Source: an uncultured SAR86 cluster bacterium
GTDB lineage: Bacteria; Pseudomonadota; Gammaproteobacteria; Magnimaribacterales; D2472
Length of the DNA: 64,000 nt
Assembly (NCBI GenBank): GCA_902605165.1
Contig: CACLBJ010000001.1
Span: forward strand, 62,001 to 126,000
Direction of reading: 5' to 3'
The translations under genes were made by a program, and so were the position numbers. Of this stretch, positions 44,262-50,763 are shown in pieces (the first letter of the stretch is position 1; every line of letters begins with the position of its first letter). Below the pieces are notes generated by a model. It did no database searches. It was not told where the DNA came from and saw nothing but the letters and a program-made list of their open reading frames with translations.

Positions 44262-45110
44262 TCAAATGCTCTCCATAATATGATCAAAAATAAATCTTGA
44301 GTTATCTTCAATAGGCTTTTCTACATCTCTGTAATATATGAAACAATCTGCTTGTTCTGAAATCTTTGTTAATTTTTTTAAACTAACTGCGTCTGCATCA
44401 CTCTTTCGATACGCATAAGTGAATAAATATTTAAATGCATCTGATGGTGAAACTTTTATAATATTTCTTTTCTTATTTGAATCAAGAAAATATATCGCTT
44501 TTAATTTAGTTTTTTTATTACTTATATACCTATTTTCCAATTTGTATAGTGACCTTTGTCTGGAATCTTTTTTCAGATAAATCCTTTCAATTGGTTTTAA
44601 AGTCTCAACTAGATTAGTTTCATCAGATTTAACCCAATCTGAAAAATTATGAATATGCATATCTTTAACAACGCAAAGATCCTCTGTTAATAACTTAAAG
44701 CCCTTGTTTACAAGGGATAAGGCAATTGAAGATTTTCCTATTCCCGACTTTCCAATAAAAGAGAAGCCGAGGTCATTTTCTGTCACCGCGCTTCCATGCA
44801 GTACTTGAAAATCATTATTCTGCAACAAGTATCCCAAAGGAACGCCTAAAACACTGTTGGCTGCCTCACTATATCTGTTATCTTTTATTGAGATATAAAT
44901 CTTTTGGTAAGTTATTTTAAACATGTTATGGTGCAAATCTTTGAATAAAATATTGTCCCCTTCGATAATCTCAATAGTTTTATCAGAGATTTGAATATTA
45001 TTTTTTAATATTATTTCAAAATCAGGTTTTTCAAAATCTATCTCCTTCAGGATCGGAAGTCTAACTTGTGATAAAAGATTAAATCCGCAGATTTGATATT
45101 TGTAGGACAT
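44262..45110 (-). CDS. HPr kinase-like protein of lasso peptide cluster (putative precursor serine kinase)
   Basis: FIGKSGIGKSSIALSLVNKGFKLLTEDLCVV P-loop and HprK-like region; next to lasso biosynthetic genes. Confidence 0.85.
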   Translation of the reverse strand: MSYKYQICGFNLLSQVRLPILKEIDFEKPDFEIILKNNIQISDKTIEIIEGDNILFKDLHHNMFKITYQKIYISIKDNRYSEAANSVLGVPLGYLLQNNDFQVLHGSAVTENDLGFSFIGKSGIGKSSIALSLVNKGFKLLTEDLCVVKDMHIHNFSDWVKSDETNLVETLKPIERIYLKKDSRQRSLYKLENRYISNKKTKLKAIYFLDSNKKRNIIKVSPSDAFKYLFTYAYRKSDADAVSLKKLTKISEQADCFIYYRDVEKPIEDNSRFIFDHIMESI

Positions 45111-45199
45111 TTTAATTTATGGGTATCATTTCATATAGCTTTCAGCAATATAAAATTAAATACTATTAGAAAGGTATTATAGGGCTAATAAAGCTAGAT

Positions 45200-45331
45200 T
45201 TATGAAGAAGATAGGATTTCTTCAGTTCCAGGAAAACTGTCGCCAGTTCCGCCCACTAAAACATCTTTAATAATGTCTTTGGCCAGGCCAAGCTCTTTGA
45301 TTTCTGGCGATGTGTAAGTTTTTCTGTCCAT
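45200..45331 (-). CDS. Putative lasso peptide precursor, 43 aa: MDRKTYTSPEIKELGLAKDIIKDVLVGGTGDSFPGTEEILSSS
   Basis: Translated by hand; not in the ORF track. Leader-like YxxPxIxxxG motif; acceptor Asp/Glu downstream; C-terminal SSS; lies between cyclase and kinase genes. Confidence 0.8.
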   Translation of the reverse strand: MDRKTYTSPEIKELGLAKDIIKDVLVGGTGDSFPGTEEILSSS

Positions 45332-45350
45332 AAGGTGAAAGATACACAGT

Positions 45351-47126
45351 TTATGTGTTTTTTTCAAGCTTTTTAATTTTTTGTTTATTGATGCTTAGCC
45401 ATTTGTTTAAAACCACAAACGAAAAAATCTTAGATGGTACAGATGATCTAGTTGCATACTTTCTTGGATTTTCTTTAAGACTATTCCATGAATTCTTTAA
45501 GTCATTGATAGAAACATAACCTTTTAAAATCTTATTTGGATTAGATAGCTCCTCATCAATAATTTTTGAGTCTTTTTCCACAAAATTTTTACATAAAGCA
45601 TGAGCTAAGTTTGATTTTGTATGCCTTCTTCTAATTTTTCCTGGCACAACTCCTTTTATAGCCTCTTTTAAAATATATCTTGAATGTCCATCTTTATTTT
45701 TTAGGTTTGGAGAAATATTTAGACAATATTCTATTAATTCTCTGTTATAGAATGGATATCTCTCTTCAATACCGTAATAGTTTGCTACTAAGCTTTGTAT
45801 TTCAATTGCTTTTGAATGATTGCTTGTTGAAATATTCTTAAGGTGTTTTTTCTTTGCATATCTTAATTGAAGGTTACTAAAAGAAAATTGATCTAGAACA
45901 CTGCGTTTAAAAATGAATGTTTTACTTTGAGAGCGCACTTTTGCAGTCCTATTTATTTCTTTATATAACCGTATCCATTTAAAAGAAAGGAACAGCTCTT
46001 GAAAATATTCATATCCATGAGAAATTACAGTATCACCATCATTTCCATTCATTACTAGATTTACTCCGCTATCCGATGCAAGAGCAAATGACTTTTTTGA
46101 TAAGTAAAGATTTGGGAAAAAAAAGGGCTGGCCTATGACTTCAATATAAAAGTCTATTTCTGAGAGCGTTGATTCATTACAGCCATCAAACCGAATACTT
46201 TTGATATCATTCAATTTATTAATCTCATCTTGATAACTTGATTCATCAATTAAGTGAGAGACATCCTCGCCTATATTCTGATAATGAGAGGAAAATGAAA
46301 AAATTTCATGATTTATCTTTTTGATGTTTCTAAAAAAAGAAATTATTGTTGACGAATCGAGGCCGCCGCTAAAGAGGAATCCTATTTTTGAATGCTTGCA
46401 TGATCTGTCTATAGATACAGATTTCTCTAAAAGATTTTTTAAACCATTTATCTGGTCATTGGCTGAAGCTAGATTATCTTTCAATTTGTATTTAGAGTAC
46501 TGAATAATCTTAATTTGATCTTTGTGGTATTTAATAAAATGTAGTGGTGGCACTTTATTAATTTCATTTATAAAGGTGTTTGTGTTTGAAGAATCATTAG
46601 AATTTAAAAAATTATCTACCTTTTCAAGATTAAGGCTAAAATTTTTATTATCCAAATTAAATAAATTCTTAAATGATGATGATAAATAAATTGAACTATC
46701 ACTTTTAAAATAACATACATTTTTAATACCTATATGATCTCTAAAAACCAAAACATTTTCTTTTATTAGATCTATTAAAATAAAGATAAAGCCATTTGAG
46801 AGACACTGCATTCCAGTTGCACCAAATTTTAAGTAAAGCTTCATCATAAGTTCAGAATCTTTGATCCTTAAATCATCATTAGCCCCAAGTTTATCAATTA
46901 AGACCTGTCTATCCTCTTCAAATATTGTTGTAAAAACTAAAAATTTTTCATGCTTTTTGTTGCATAAGTTAAAGTTTTCATTACTTCCATTATGTTTAAA
47001 TAAAACAAAATCATTTTTATAGCTTTGAGTAAAACCCTGTTGTACTTTCTCATAATAGTTTGATTCCAAAGAAAAGTTCTTTCCTCTAAGGCCTTTAAAG
47101 TCTATGCAAGCAATAAAATCAATCAT
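45351..47126 (-). CDS. Asparagine synthetase-like protein (putative lasso macrolactam cyclase)
   Basis: LFSGGLDSSTIISFF PPi loop, MNGNDGDTVISHGYEY; N-terminus MIDF lacks the Cys2 of glutamine-dependent enzymes. Confidence 0.9.
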   Translation of the reverse strand: MIDFIACIDFKGLRGKNFSLESNYYEKVQQGFTQSYKNDFVLFKHNGSNENFNLCNKKHEKFLVFTTIFEEDRQVLIDKLGANDDLRIKDSELMMKLYLKFGATGMQCLSNGFIFILIDLIKENVLVFRDHIGIKNVCYFKSDSSIYLSSSFKNLFNLDNKNFSLNLEKVDNFLNSNDSSNTNTFINEINKVPPLHFIKYHKDQIKIIQYSKYKLKDNLASANDQINGLKNLLEKSVSIDRSCKHSKIGFLFSGGLDSSTIISFFRNIKKINHEIFSFSSHYQNIGEDVSHLIDESSYQDEINKLNDIKSIRFDGCNESTLSEIDFYIEVIGQPFFFPNLYLSKKSFALASDSGVNLVMNGNDGDTVISHGYEYFQELFLSFKWIRLYKEINRTAKVRSQSKTFIFKRSVLDQFSFSNLQLRYAKKKHLKNISTSNHSKAIEIQSLVANYYGIEERYPFYNRELIEYCLNISPNLKNKDGHSRYILKEAIKGVVPGKIRRRHTKSNLAHALCKNFVEKDSKIIDEELSNPNKILKGYVSINDLKNSWNSLKENPRKYATRSSVPSKIFSFVVLNKWLSINKQKIKKLEKNT

Positions 47127-47128
47127 TT

Positions 47129-47542
47129 TCAGACTCTAAAAGATTCAGTATATTTTTTTATATCTTCATTCTTTTCAAAGATTATCTCATCTTTATAAGA
47201 AAGCCATGCATGTCCCTTAAGATTTGCATCTTTATCAAATCTGACTCCGCATATAACTAAAAAATTAAAACCAAAATTTGAAAAAACAATTTTCTGTGAA
47301 AGGGATTTTGTTAAACAGGATTTTATTTTCAAGGCGCTACTCAATTTAAGATACCATTTATGCATTCTTTCTATAGGTATTTCAGATTCACTTGATATTA
47401 GAAGAATATTTGATATTTTTCTTACCTTCATTATTGCTGATTCTAGTGACATGATTTTAAGAAAGATCTTAATTATGCATATTGCAAAGACGGAAATAAT
47501 AACAAATTTCATTTTTATTAAGAGGTAATTGGGGAATTGCAT
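47129..47542 (-). CDS. Transglutaminase-like lasso peptide B2 protein (putative leader protease)
   Basis: SCLTKSL (Cys), GHAWLSYKDEIIFE (His/Asp) pattern; 137 aa; between PqqD-like and cyclase genes. Confidence 0.85.
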   Translation of the reverse strand: MQFPNYLLIKMKFVIISVFAICIIKIFLKIMSLESAIMKVRKISNILLISSESEIPIERMHKWYLKLSSALKIKSCLTKSLSQKIVFSNFGFNFLVICGVRFDKDANLKGHAWLSYKDEIIFEKNEDIKKYTESFRV

Positions 47543-47543
47543 A

Positions 47544-47819
47544 TTATTTATAATGCAATAAATTTTTACTTTCTAAGTCCTTAATGAATGATAGAAGATC
47601 TTTTTCAGATTTATTTGGAGTCACATCAAAATCTTTAATGATCTTATTATTTAAACTTTCAAATGTTGAAAATTGATTTAGCTTAGAAACAATATAGCTT
47701 CCTAATTCATTTACTTGAAAATAAATCCCAGTTTTTAGATTGAGTATTATAGATTCATCATTTATTTCTGATATTACAATATCGTCAATTATCTTAAAGA
47801 TTTTATCTTTGAATTCCAT
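47544..47819 (-). CDS. PqqD-like RiPP recognition element (B1 protein)
   Basis: 91 aa, ILNLKTGIYFQVNELGSYIVSKL...VTPNKSEKDLLSFIKDLESKNLL. Confidence 0.85.
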   Translation of the reverse strand: MEFKDKIFKIIDDIVISEINDESIILNLKTGIYFQVNELGSYIVSKLNQFSTFESLNNKIIKDFDVTPNKSEKDLLSFIKDLESKNLLHYK

Positions 47820-47822
47820 AAA

Positions 47823-48620
47823 TTAGTAGTAATTAAGATTCCCATTCTTTTTTGCTTCTTTGAGTGAATAATAAACCAAAAGAATTCCAGTTGGAACGAA
47901 AAGTAACGACATGTATAAAATCTTTAAAAGATCAGGAAATGCTTCACCTAGATCAAAATTACTTAATAATGCCTGCTCTGCAATATCTAGGCCAATCGAA
48001 AGAGGTAAGTTGTTACTAATATCTACCAAATACTCTGGCATTGCATCTAGCGAGAAAAATATACCTGAGAAAAAAATAGATGAAATGGCTACAAAAAAAC
48101 TTATAACATTACCTACCTTAAATAAAATAATAAATGCTGCTGCAAATAGTCCAACTCCTATAAAAGGTATGCAGTTATAAACCACCAAAGCAAAAAAAAT
48201 AGGAATATTAGATAAGGTAATATCTACTCCAAAGATAAACTTACTTATGAATACGTATATAAGTATTCGAAAAAAAGATCTTGAAAAAGTTAATGCATAA
48301 GACGAAAGAAGAATAGTTAAGATTGAAGTCTTAGTTAATATTAAAGCTTCAAAAGTACCATACACTTGGGCAAGACGTACTTCTCTTGAAAATACTGACA
48401 TTGATGAAAACATAAAGTCTATTAAAGCTATTCCAACTAATATTTTAAAAAATTCTGAGTTTCCATTGTCTGCGTCATTAGAAGAGATAGCTGAGAAAAA
48501 TATTAATGAAATGATGAATATGATAAATATGATCTGCAAAAGAAGATTAAATTTATAAGAAAGTGTAATTTGTATATCTTTTCTTAAGAAAGCAAAAAAT
48601 TTAGATAAAAAATCTCTCAC
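47823..48620 (-). CDS. ABC-2 type transporter permease
   Basis: Six TM-like segments, ABC-2 architecture; overlaps ATPase gene by 4 bp. Confidence 0.85.
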   Translation of the reverse strand: MRDFLSKFFAFLRKDIQITLSYKFNLLLQIIFIIFIISLIFFSAISSNDADNGNSEFFKILVGIALIDFMFSSMSVFSREVRLAQVYGTFEALILTKTSILTILLSSYALTFSRSFFRILIYVFISKFIFGVDITLSNIPIFFALVVYNCIPFIGVGLFAAAFIILFKVGNVISFFVAISSIFFSGIFFSLDAMPEYLVDISNNLPLSIGLDIAEQALLSNFDLGEAFPDLLKILYMSLLFVPTGILLVYYSLKEAKKNGNLNYY

Positions 48621-49513
48621 AATATGAAATCCTCAAAATGGTTAAAGTTTTTTTCTAATGAAACTATTTTTATATCAAACTTTGTTAGAAGTTTAAGAAT
48701 CTCATCTAGGTCTAAATCCTTATCTGACACAGTAAAAAAGTGGTTTGAGTTATATGATTTTGTAATTACAACATCTAATTTTAACTTTATCTTTTCAAGA
48801 TCAGTATTTAAAATCTCAAATTCATAATTTATAGCTTTTTGATGAAATTTAAATATTTCCGAATCGTTAAAAATAAATTTTTTATCTTTTAAAAGTCCAA
48901 ACTTATTACTAACTTTATTTAACTCTAAATAGTCATGTGAGCACCAAATGGCAGGTATTTTATTCTCCATAAGATATTCTCTTGTGGTATCAATTATCTT
49001 CTTTGAACTCTCATAATCTAAACTCGTGGTAGGCTCATCAAGGAGGAGAAGATCAGGTTTTTTCAATAAAGATCTGGCTATATTTATACATTGCATTTGA
49101 CCAGAAGAAAGAAGCATAAAAGACTTATCAAGAATATCTGATATTCCTAAAATATCACTAATTTTATTAATGCCCTCATCTATTTCTTTATTAGATAAGC
49201 CTAACATTTTCCCAAAAAAGGTAAGATTCTCTCTACACGAAATTCTCCAATAAAATGATCTTGGGTTAGCGCTAGCAAACCCAAATTGAGGATCTTTTTT
49301 ATCTGTAAATACAACACTTCCTTGGCTAGGATGGATTAAGCCAAGAATAATTTTTAGCAGCGTTGTTTTTCCTGCACCGTTTCTGCCGAGTAAGCCTAAG
49401 ATGTCACCATCATCTAAAGTAAGGTTTATATCTTCTAAAACAGATTTGTTTTCTATTTGGAAGAAATTTCGTACTTTAAACTCTTTGTATAGGTTTTTTA
49501 ATTCTAATTTCAT
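48617..49513 (-). CDS. ABC transporter ATP-binding protein
   Basis: GLLGRNGAGKTTLLKIILGLIHP, LSSGQMQCINIARSLLKKPDLLLLDEPT. Confidence 0.93.
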   Translation of the reverse strand: MKLELKNLYKEFKVRNFFQIENKSVLEDINLTLDDGDILGLLGRNGAGKTTLLKIILGLIHPSQGSVVFTDKKDPQFGFASANPRSFYWRISCRENLTFFGKMLGLSNKEIDEGINKISDILGISDILDKSFMLLSSGQMQCINIARSLLKKPDLLLLDEPTTSLDYESSKKIIDTTREYLMENKIPAIWCSHDYLELNKVSNKFGLLKDKKFIFNDSEIFKFHQKAINYEFEILNTDLEKIKLKLDVVITKSYNSNHFFTVSDKDLDLDEILKLLTKFDIKIVSLEKNFNHFEDFIL

Positions 49514-50763
49514 TAATTCCTATTAAACCAAAGATCAATGTTATTTGTATATTTTAAATACTCACGATTAGTTATTTTTGCATGAATAAAAGATGGTAAG
49601 CCTTGTAACTTTAAAATTTGTAAAAAAATATAATTAATATATTTTTTTAAAATAGAAAGTCTTGTTGGATTCGAAATCTTATATTCATAAATTAATGAAT
49701 TTGTTCCTGGGAATATTCTTTTTACCAAAATAGAAACAACCTTTCCTGGTTTATTTATATTCTTATAAAGGTTACCTCCTTTAATTATTATTTTCTTTGA
49801 TGTATTAAAAAGCCTCTTTTGAGCCTCTAAAATTATTTCATTGTTTGGACAATCATTGGCAAAGTCAGATCTAATCTTATTTAGGTTTTCAATAGTAATA
49901 TTGTTGAAATTAATTACTTCTAGTGACAAAAGCATACTTTTTCTGATCTTTCTATTTTCTGTTTTTGACAGGATCTCATGGAAATTTATATTATGATTTT
50001 TTGTGATTAGCCTCAAATCATTTAAGGTCCTTATCAACCTGTTGAAGTCTGATAAAAAGAAATGGCATAGCTGATGAAGTGCAAGATTGTTAATTGAGGG
50101 AATATTTATTTTCTCACCATAAAAATCTACTTCTCTTGTGTCTTCTAGCATGCTTTTCTTTATCGGGCAGCATGAGAAAAATTTAGTGTGTGTAATCCTA
50201 TGATGTAATTCAATTGAAATACCATTTCTCGTTACCAAATGAATGTGGTGAAACTTCCTGCAGAAGTCTTCTATATTTTGATTATTAAGATATTGGGCCT
50301 CCCGTGGGTCTAAAAAATTTTTTTGATGGAGCACTTGATAAGCTTTTAATATTTCAGATCTATCAAAAAGAATATCAATATCTACAAAAGGTCTAAGAGC
50401 GACATCTTTATACTCTGTTTGCAAAGCAATCCCTTTGAGATACAGGGGTTTTAATCCTTCTGAAATAAATATTTTATTTAATAAATGAACCTCCCTTATT
50501 GAGTGAAGGGAGTTAATCTGGAATCTTCTCTTTTGATTCTCGCAATTCTCTAGAAAAGAACTATCAAATAGATTGTAAAGATTATTTTTCCCAATAAATT
50601 CTATAAAGTTTGGTGAAAGCTTATTTTGGATAACTATTTCATTAAATTTCTTTTTATCTTCACTATTAAGATTTTTAAAAATAAATTTGAAATGATCACC
50701 GCTTGATTCAGAAATTATTTCATTTATAAGATCTCGAGAAGAATTGTTACCAGATTTTTTCAA
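49513..50763 (-). CDS. Nucleotidyltransferase family protein of RiPP cluster
   Basis: LKPLYLKGIALQTEYKDVALRPFVDIDILF resembles the NTP_transf_5-type motif found in lasso clusters. Confidence 0.8.
   Translation of the reverse strand: MKKSGNNSSRDLINEIISESSGDHFKFIFKNLNSEDKKKFNEIVIQNKLSPNFIEFIGKNNLYNLFDSSFLENCENQKRRFQINSLHSIREVHLLNKIFISEGLKPLYLKGIALQTEYKDVALRPFVDIDILFDRSEILKAYQVLHQKNFLDPREAQYLNNQNIEDFCRKFHHIHLVTRNGISIELHHRITHTKFFSCCPIKKSMLEDTREVDFYGEKINIPSINNLALHQLCHFFLSDFNRLIRTLNDLRLITKNHNINFHEILSKTENRKIRKSMLLSLEVINFNNITIENLNKIRSDFANDCPNNEIILEAQKRLFNTSKKIIIKGGNLYKNINKPGKVVSILVKRIFPGTNSLIYEYKISNPTRLSILKKYINYIFLQILKLQGLPSFIHAKITNREYLKYTNNIDLWFNRN

Follow-up and report, generated by a model that had tools for sequence, protein, structure and literature searches.

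A probable class II lasso peptide precursor with predicted isoleucine at position −2 in a kinase-associated operon of a SAR86 cluster bacterium

The window, the whole 64,000-nucleotide stretch of DNA analyzed here from an uncultured SAR86 cluster bacterium, carries on its minus strand an operon encoding, in order, a nucleotidyltransferase (N), an ABC ATPase, an ABC-2 permease, B1, B2, a cyclase (C), a short precursor open reading frame (A) and an HPr-like kinase (K) (Table 1). The genes A, B1, B2 and C that make up a class II lasso peptide gene set are all present, and the operon neighbors overlap or nearly touch, as in a single transcription unit. The 43-residue precursor ORF, MDRKTYTSPEIKELGLAKDIIKDVLVGGTGDSFPGTEEILSSS, runs from an ATG at 45331 to a final sense codon at 45203, with the stop codon extending to 45200, and starts 19 bp past the cyclase stop (45351). 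The sequence, strand, coordinates and 19-bp gap given in the original prediction, which was made from the DNA letters alone, were all correct on re-reading.

Table 1 Features of the lasso peptide operon and its predicted precursor (positions within the window).
Feature	Position	Strand	Basis
Nucleotidyltransferase N (NTP_transf_5)	49513..50763	(-)	PF14907 6e-29; like the N genes of the bsf and pseudomycoidin clusters
ABC transporter ATPase	48617..49513	(-)	PF00005 5.4e-27
ABC-2 type transporter permease	47823..48620	(-)	PF01061 1.6e-13
Leader-binding protein B1 (PqqD/RRE), 91 aa	47544..47819	(-)	PF05402 2.5e-11; similar to BsfB1
Leader peptidase B2, 137 aa, Cys and His conserved	47129..47542	(-)	PF13471 1.8e-07, above cut-off; similar to BsfB2
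Lasso cyclase C, asparagine-synthetase-like, 591 aa, SGGLDSS ATP motif	45351..47126	(-)	PF00733 2.2e-28
Precursor peptide gene (A), 43 aa	45200..45331	(-)	ORF, homologs and alignment, purifying selection
Leader peptide, residues 1-22 (predicted)	45266..45331	(-)	BsfA motif spacing; layout common to 12 precursors
Predicted core DVLVGGTGDSFPGTEEILSSS, residues 23-43	45203..45265	(-)	Alignment with five group I orthologs
Codons of ring residues D23 and D31 (predicted; tail = residues 32-43)	45263-45265 and 45239-45241	(-)	
HPr-kinase-like precursor kinase K, 282 aa; His, P-loop GKS, Glu-Asp pair	44262..45110	(-)	PF07475 8e-09, above cut-off; similar to BsfK

Several of the operon proteins scored under the NCBI curated lasso cut-offs, though over those of Pfam. 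B2 reached 1.1e-06 against NF033537, slightly under the cut-off, and the cyclase had the lasso cyclase model NF033535 as its best-scoring family (1.4e-79; 268 bits, under the curated cut-off of 525 bits), while the best solved relative of B1 was TbiB1 (5v1u, 2.7e-09). The family profiles of the window's B1, B2 and K matched BsfB1, BsfB2 and BsfK from Bradymonas sediminis with E-values of 2.6e-20, 1.8e-07 and 1.9e-16, respectively, in a search set of four proteins only. The window kinase retains the His and GKS motifs, and the first Asp of the Asp-Asp pair carried by BsfK and known lasso kinases is Glu here, as in all ten aligned kinases of the order. B2 has a Glu about 12 residues past its catalytic His, a position which we take to be that of the third triad residue, expected to be Asp; BsfB2, which is experimentally active, likewise carries Glu in this part of the alignment. 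Every complete related locus examined in the order contained B1, B2, C, K, the ABC pair and N, with a different gene order in L026-L029 and with the L032 locus cut by a contig end; N was present in all related clusters of the order examined.

The window peptide had no match in Pfam or NCBIfam, precursor models included, and did not reach the curated cut-offs of the paeninodin family model NF033524 or the leader model NF033521. Homologous ORFs were nevertheless found in syntenic positions between cyclase and kinase in L008, L003 and L004, with 86, 81 and 53% identity to the window precursor, 3' of cyclases sharing 93, 58 and 43% identity with that of the window. The proportions of changed synonymous and non-synonymous sites (pS/pN) between the window precursor and these three homologs were 0.40/0.09, 0.69/0.14 and 0.77/0.30, and the core region taken alone showed the same trend of more synonymous than non-synonymous change. 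The 43-residue ORF is thus a real gene, with syntenic homologs and purifying selection on leader and core. A profile built from these four precursors retrieved further members in the same order, each adjoining a cyclase and a kinase; in all, the profiles and the loci brought in by them supplied eight precursors beyond these four, giving a set of 12 with the window included; profile matches weaker than E ~0.03 mostly lay inside long frames and were left out. Within this set, group I comprises six precursors (window, L008, L003, L004, L015 and L016) and group II five (L017, L018, L019, L021 and L029). Two cyclase-profile matches, L033 and L034, were rejected as they had no precursor-like ORF adjoining; L033, situated among sugar-pathway genes, looks like an ordinary asparagine synthase. 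A search of a plasmid collection gave distant synthases only (21-27% identity).

The leader contains Y6(-17), P9(-14), I11(-12), G15(-8), I21(-2) and K22(-1), confirming the Y6-P9-I11-G15 motif noted originally, and all 12 precursors have Y or W at −17 and P at −14, as in YxxPxL-type leaders. The cleavage site had been described as not obvious since Ile21 aligns with the −2 position, where class II lasso peptides have Thr. While Thr(−2) is indeed missing, the site can be assigned by comparison to BsfA from B. sediminis, for which BsfB1 and BsfB2 were shown by mass spectrometry to remove a leader ending in YKKPQLTYHSTLAAIIR after Arg(−1), with Ile at −2; replacing this Ile by Thr or Ala stopped cleavage (PMC10368454). 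In our translation of the published bsf genes, the spacing from the BsfA Tyr to the cut is 17 residues, and the corresponding window segment, YTSPEIKELGLAKDIIK, equals that of BsfA in both length and Ile-Ile-basic ending. As the B1, B2 and K profiles also match their Bsf counterparts, the cut is predicted to fall between K22 and D23, with Ile21 at −2. Ile(−2) has also been described from in silico analysis of Acidobacteriaceae and Sphingomonadales (PMC10368454), and its experimental acceptance in BsfA means that Thr(−2) is no longer strictly defining. The absence of Thr(−2), originally taken to make the peptide atypical, therefore has a validated parallel.

With the cut placed by this spacing (the −17 rule), the six group I cores start with DVLVGGTGD, DVLASGTGD, DVLSSGTGD, NVFISGSGD, NVDVDGSGD and NVNVTGGGD. 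Position +1 is thus D or N (Asn in L004, L015 and L016) and position +9 is D in all six, which lies within the range of 7-9 where a lasso acceptor acid is sought. No further acid follows D9 in L015 or L016, and in L016 D9 is the sole acid of the core, so that E37/E38 cannot be the general acceptor. Furthermore, three Thr(−2) comparators with neighboring K and C genes (L105, L124 and L133) pass NF033521, the lasso leader model of NCBI; in all three, D9 leads into xxFPxxTPxxxLTFS, which can be compared to D9-SFPGTEEILSSS in the window. On these grounds a nine-residue ring from D23 to D31 with a tail of 12 residues is predicted; this was the first candidate core of the original prediction, and the group I comparison backs it. 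The core contains no Cys, in line with the lack of disulfides in class II lasso peptides.

Among characterized systems, the bsf cluster is similar in its genes A, B1, B2, C, D, K and N, and BsfA shares with the window peptide the leader pattern Y(-17)xxP(-14)xL(-12) (I at −12 in the window), the Ile-Ile-basic residues at −3 to −1 and a 21-residue core (PMC10368454). BsfA differs in having Gly1 with a predicted eight-residue ring to D8, compared to Asp1 and D9 in the window, and in its phosphorylated Ser3 and C-terminal Asp, where the window core ends in Ser. Metanodin, produced in E. coli from a Steroidobacterales-like soil-metagenome cluster, was reported as the first lasso peptide with Asn1, and its precursor was missed by antiSMASH annotation (PMC12670498). 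It thus resembles the window peptide in its polar non-canonical first residue and in having a precursor missed by automated tools, as well as in a nine-residue ring, as read here from its fragmentation, against the nine predicted for the window; it differs in combining Thr(−2) with Asn1 instead of Ile(−2) with Asp1. The first residues listed in a review are Gly, Cys, Ser, Ala and Trp (PMC6784204), and no experimental precedent for Asp as residue 1 was found in the literature searched. The paeninodin and pseudomycoidin systems of Firmicutes, from another phylum, likewise encode an HPr-like kinase, acting there on the C-terminal Ser, and pseudomycoidin has an N gene as does the window (PMC8498205, PMC9266682); the peptide, as stated, does not match the paeninodin model. 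L105, L124 (which also matches NF033528) and L133 share with the window D9, a FP soon after, the T and L/S positions of the tail and the K, C, B2 and B1 neighbors, but have Thr(−2), Gly1 or Ala1, a longer tail and a transporter ATPase match in a longer ORF. The suggestion of a possibly new family can accordingly be kept for the precursor, an unlisted subfamily matched by no NCBIfam precursor model, but not for the machinery and core layout, which are those of kinase-associated lasso peptides.

Group II presents a different picture. By the leader rule these precursors have Gly at +1, a canonical lasso start, and an Asp apparently homologous to D9 (in a GxGD-like motif) at core position 12-17, while acids at positions 7-9 occur in L019 and L021 only and in none of the other three. 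Group II would thus have either other acceptors and ring sizes or a cut elsewhere. The shifted Asp shows that the ring region was rebuilt within the lineage and that position 9 is not universal in the order, with the assignment for the window's clade unaffected. Starting the group II cores at the D of DPK, which would give the nine-residue rings DPKIPGGGD and DPKIIGTGD, fits L017-L019 but not L021 or L029, requires Pro or Gly at −2, and was rejected. That the Asp after G-x-[GS] is always the acceptor throughout the order, with the cut always following the −17 rule and rings of 7 to 17 residues, appears very unlikely to us; if true, Asp1-Asp9 of the window would be one point in a range far beyond known lasso ring sizes. 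Other unusual precursors were also observed. In the same order, L044 (1501-1641) has a classical Thr(−2) with Met at +1 (MPSGEGDTKDFGFND...), and its cyclase groups with those of group II in the tree. The Thr(−2) precursor L129 (9521-9712) has D9-VWPG, resembling D9-SFPG in the window, and is a possible further non-glycine start. L116 (10279-10959) contains a run of three short ORFs that resemble one another, next to kinase and cyclase genes, with WxKPxL leaders and SGKKxxRxKExNKxVGS-like ends; they are basic and have no clear ring acceptor by the −17 rule.

Other readings of the window precursor were weighed against a K22/D23 cut with a threaded D23-D31 ring. If B2 instead cut after Asp23, Val24 would become residue 1 of an eight-residue ring to D31. 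V24 is invariant in the six group I precursors, D31 would still be the acceptor, and the leader rule gives Val at +1 in L129; such a cut would, however, place Lys or Gln at −2 and lengthen the leader spacing to −18, which is not seen in BsfA or the Thr(−2) comparators, and we consider it unlikely. An unthreaded branched-cyclic macrolactam with the ring D23-D31 would suit a tail in which small residues abound and few besides F33, I39 and L40 could serve as bulky plugs, and no sequence feature shows threading, but with the lasso cyclase model scoring best and a gene set like that of lasso clusters with K and N, we judge this outcome quite unlikely.

The core starting at G30 (GDSFPGTEEILSSS) with an eight- or nine-residue ring to E37 or E38, another candidate of the original prediction, would begin with the commonest first residue, and G30 and E37 are invariant in the four closest sequences. 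It was rejected because the orthologs L015 and L016 have no acid at those sites, and it would further require a leader seven residues over the BsfA spacing; we give it next to no weight. The chance that the ORF is spurious and the true precursor lies elsewhere is practically negligible: it has no match among the family models, and visual inspection showed no obvious ribosome-binding site, but its conservation and purifying selection at a syntenic place, between C and K at related loci, led us to reject this reading.

We therefore regard it as likely that the ORF is the A gene of a class II lasso peptide in an N-D-D-B1-B2-C-A-K operon, cut at K22/D23 and closed between D23 and D31. In the proposed pathway, B1 would bind the leader via Y(-17), P(-14), I(-12) and G(-8), and the kinase, aided by B1, would act on the linear precursor and phosphorylate one Ser or Thr, most likely at the Ser-rich C-terminus (S41-S43). 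In other clusters, phosphorylation by HPr-like kinases falls on a C-terminal Ser (paeninodin type) or, with BsfK, on Ser3, and a link between PsmN and the transfer of hexose to the phosphate has been described (PMC8498205, PMC9266682); the nucleotidyltransferase may similarly decorate the precursor phosphate. The C-terminal SSS is suggestive only as a phosphorylation site, and the kinase target residue is uncertain, since the C-terminal Ser is replaced by Gly in L004 and L015. B2 would then cut after Ile(−2)-Lys(−1) to free the alpha-amine of Asp23, the cyclase would activate the Asp31 side chain and join it to this amine, forming the ring DVLVGGTGD with the tail threaded through it, and the ABC transporter would export the product.

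The operon (window 44262-50763) lies between coaD and an oxidoreductase gene and has a G+C content of 28.1%, compared to 33.9% in the rest of the window. In seven same-genus genomes that contain the flank, coaD directly adjoins the oxidoreductase gene and the operon is absent, and it is thus an island of patchy distribution. Searching 204 genomes of the order with the cyclase gave matches in six only, and the precursor profile found a convincing member in 11 genomes of the order. The clusters of more distant relatives are flanked by other genes. The L008 contig is labeled Flavobacteriales bacterium MED779 but shares with the window both the operon and its flanks (coaD, mutM and the end of tolC), and is therefore probably a mis-binned contig from an organism closely related to that of the window. 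A maximum-likelihood analysis of 29 cyclases placed those of the window's order together on one side of a branch (100/100), and within them the six group I cyclases were a supported group (99/90); the end branches are long, making deeper placement unsure. No paper reporting SAR86 lasso peptide clusters was found in the literature searched.

An unannotated gene of a small marine bacterium thus very probably encodes a lasso peptide precursor, as originally proposed and as supported by the syntenic homologs, the purifying selection and the complete gene set; the alignment with short ORFs beside related cyclases, suggested at the time as a check, showed a conserved leader layout and, in group I, a conserved predicted acceptor. 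The precursor appears to present a new combination of Ile(−2), predicted Asp1, a kinase and a nucleotidyltransferase, two of these features being rare: Ile(−2) was proven elsewhere only recently, and Asp1 is known only in the near form of Asn1. Lasso peptides provide stable scaffolds that can be engineered, and the search for new ones often leans on Thr(−2) and Gly1, both absent from the window family, which is missed by curated models. With the present set, orthologous precursors from small marine genomes become testable. If confirmed, Asp1 would extend the known ring-closure chemistry, and the alternation of D and N at +1 among the orthologs would constitute a natural test of cyclase acceptance.
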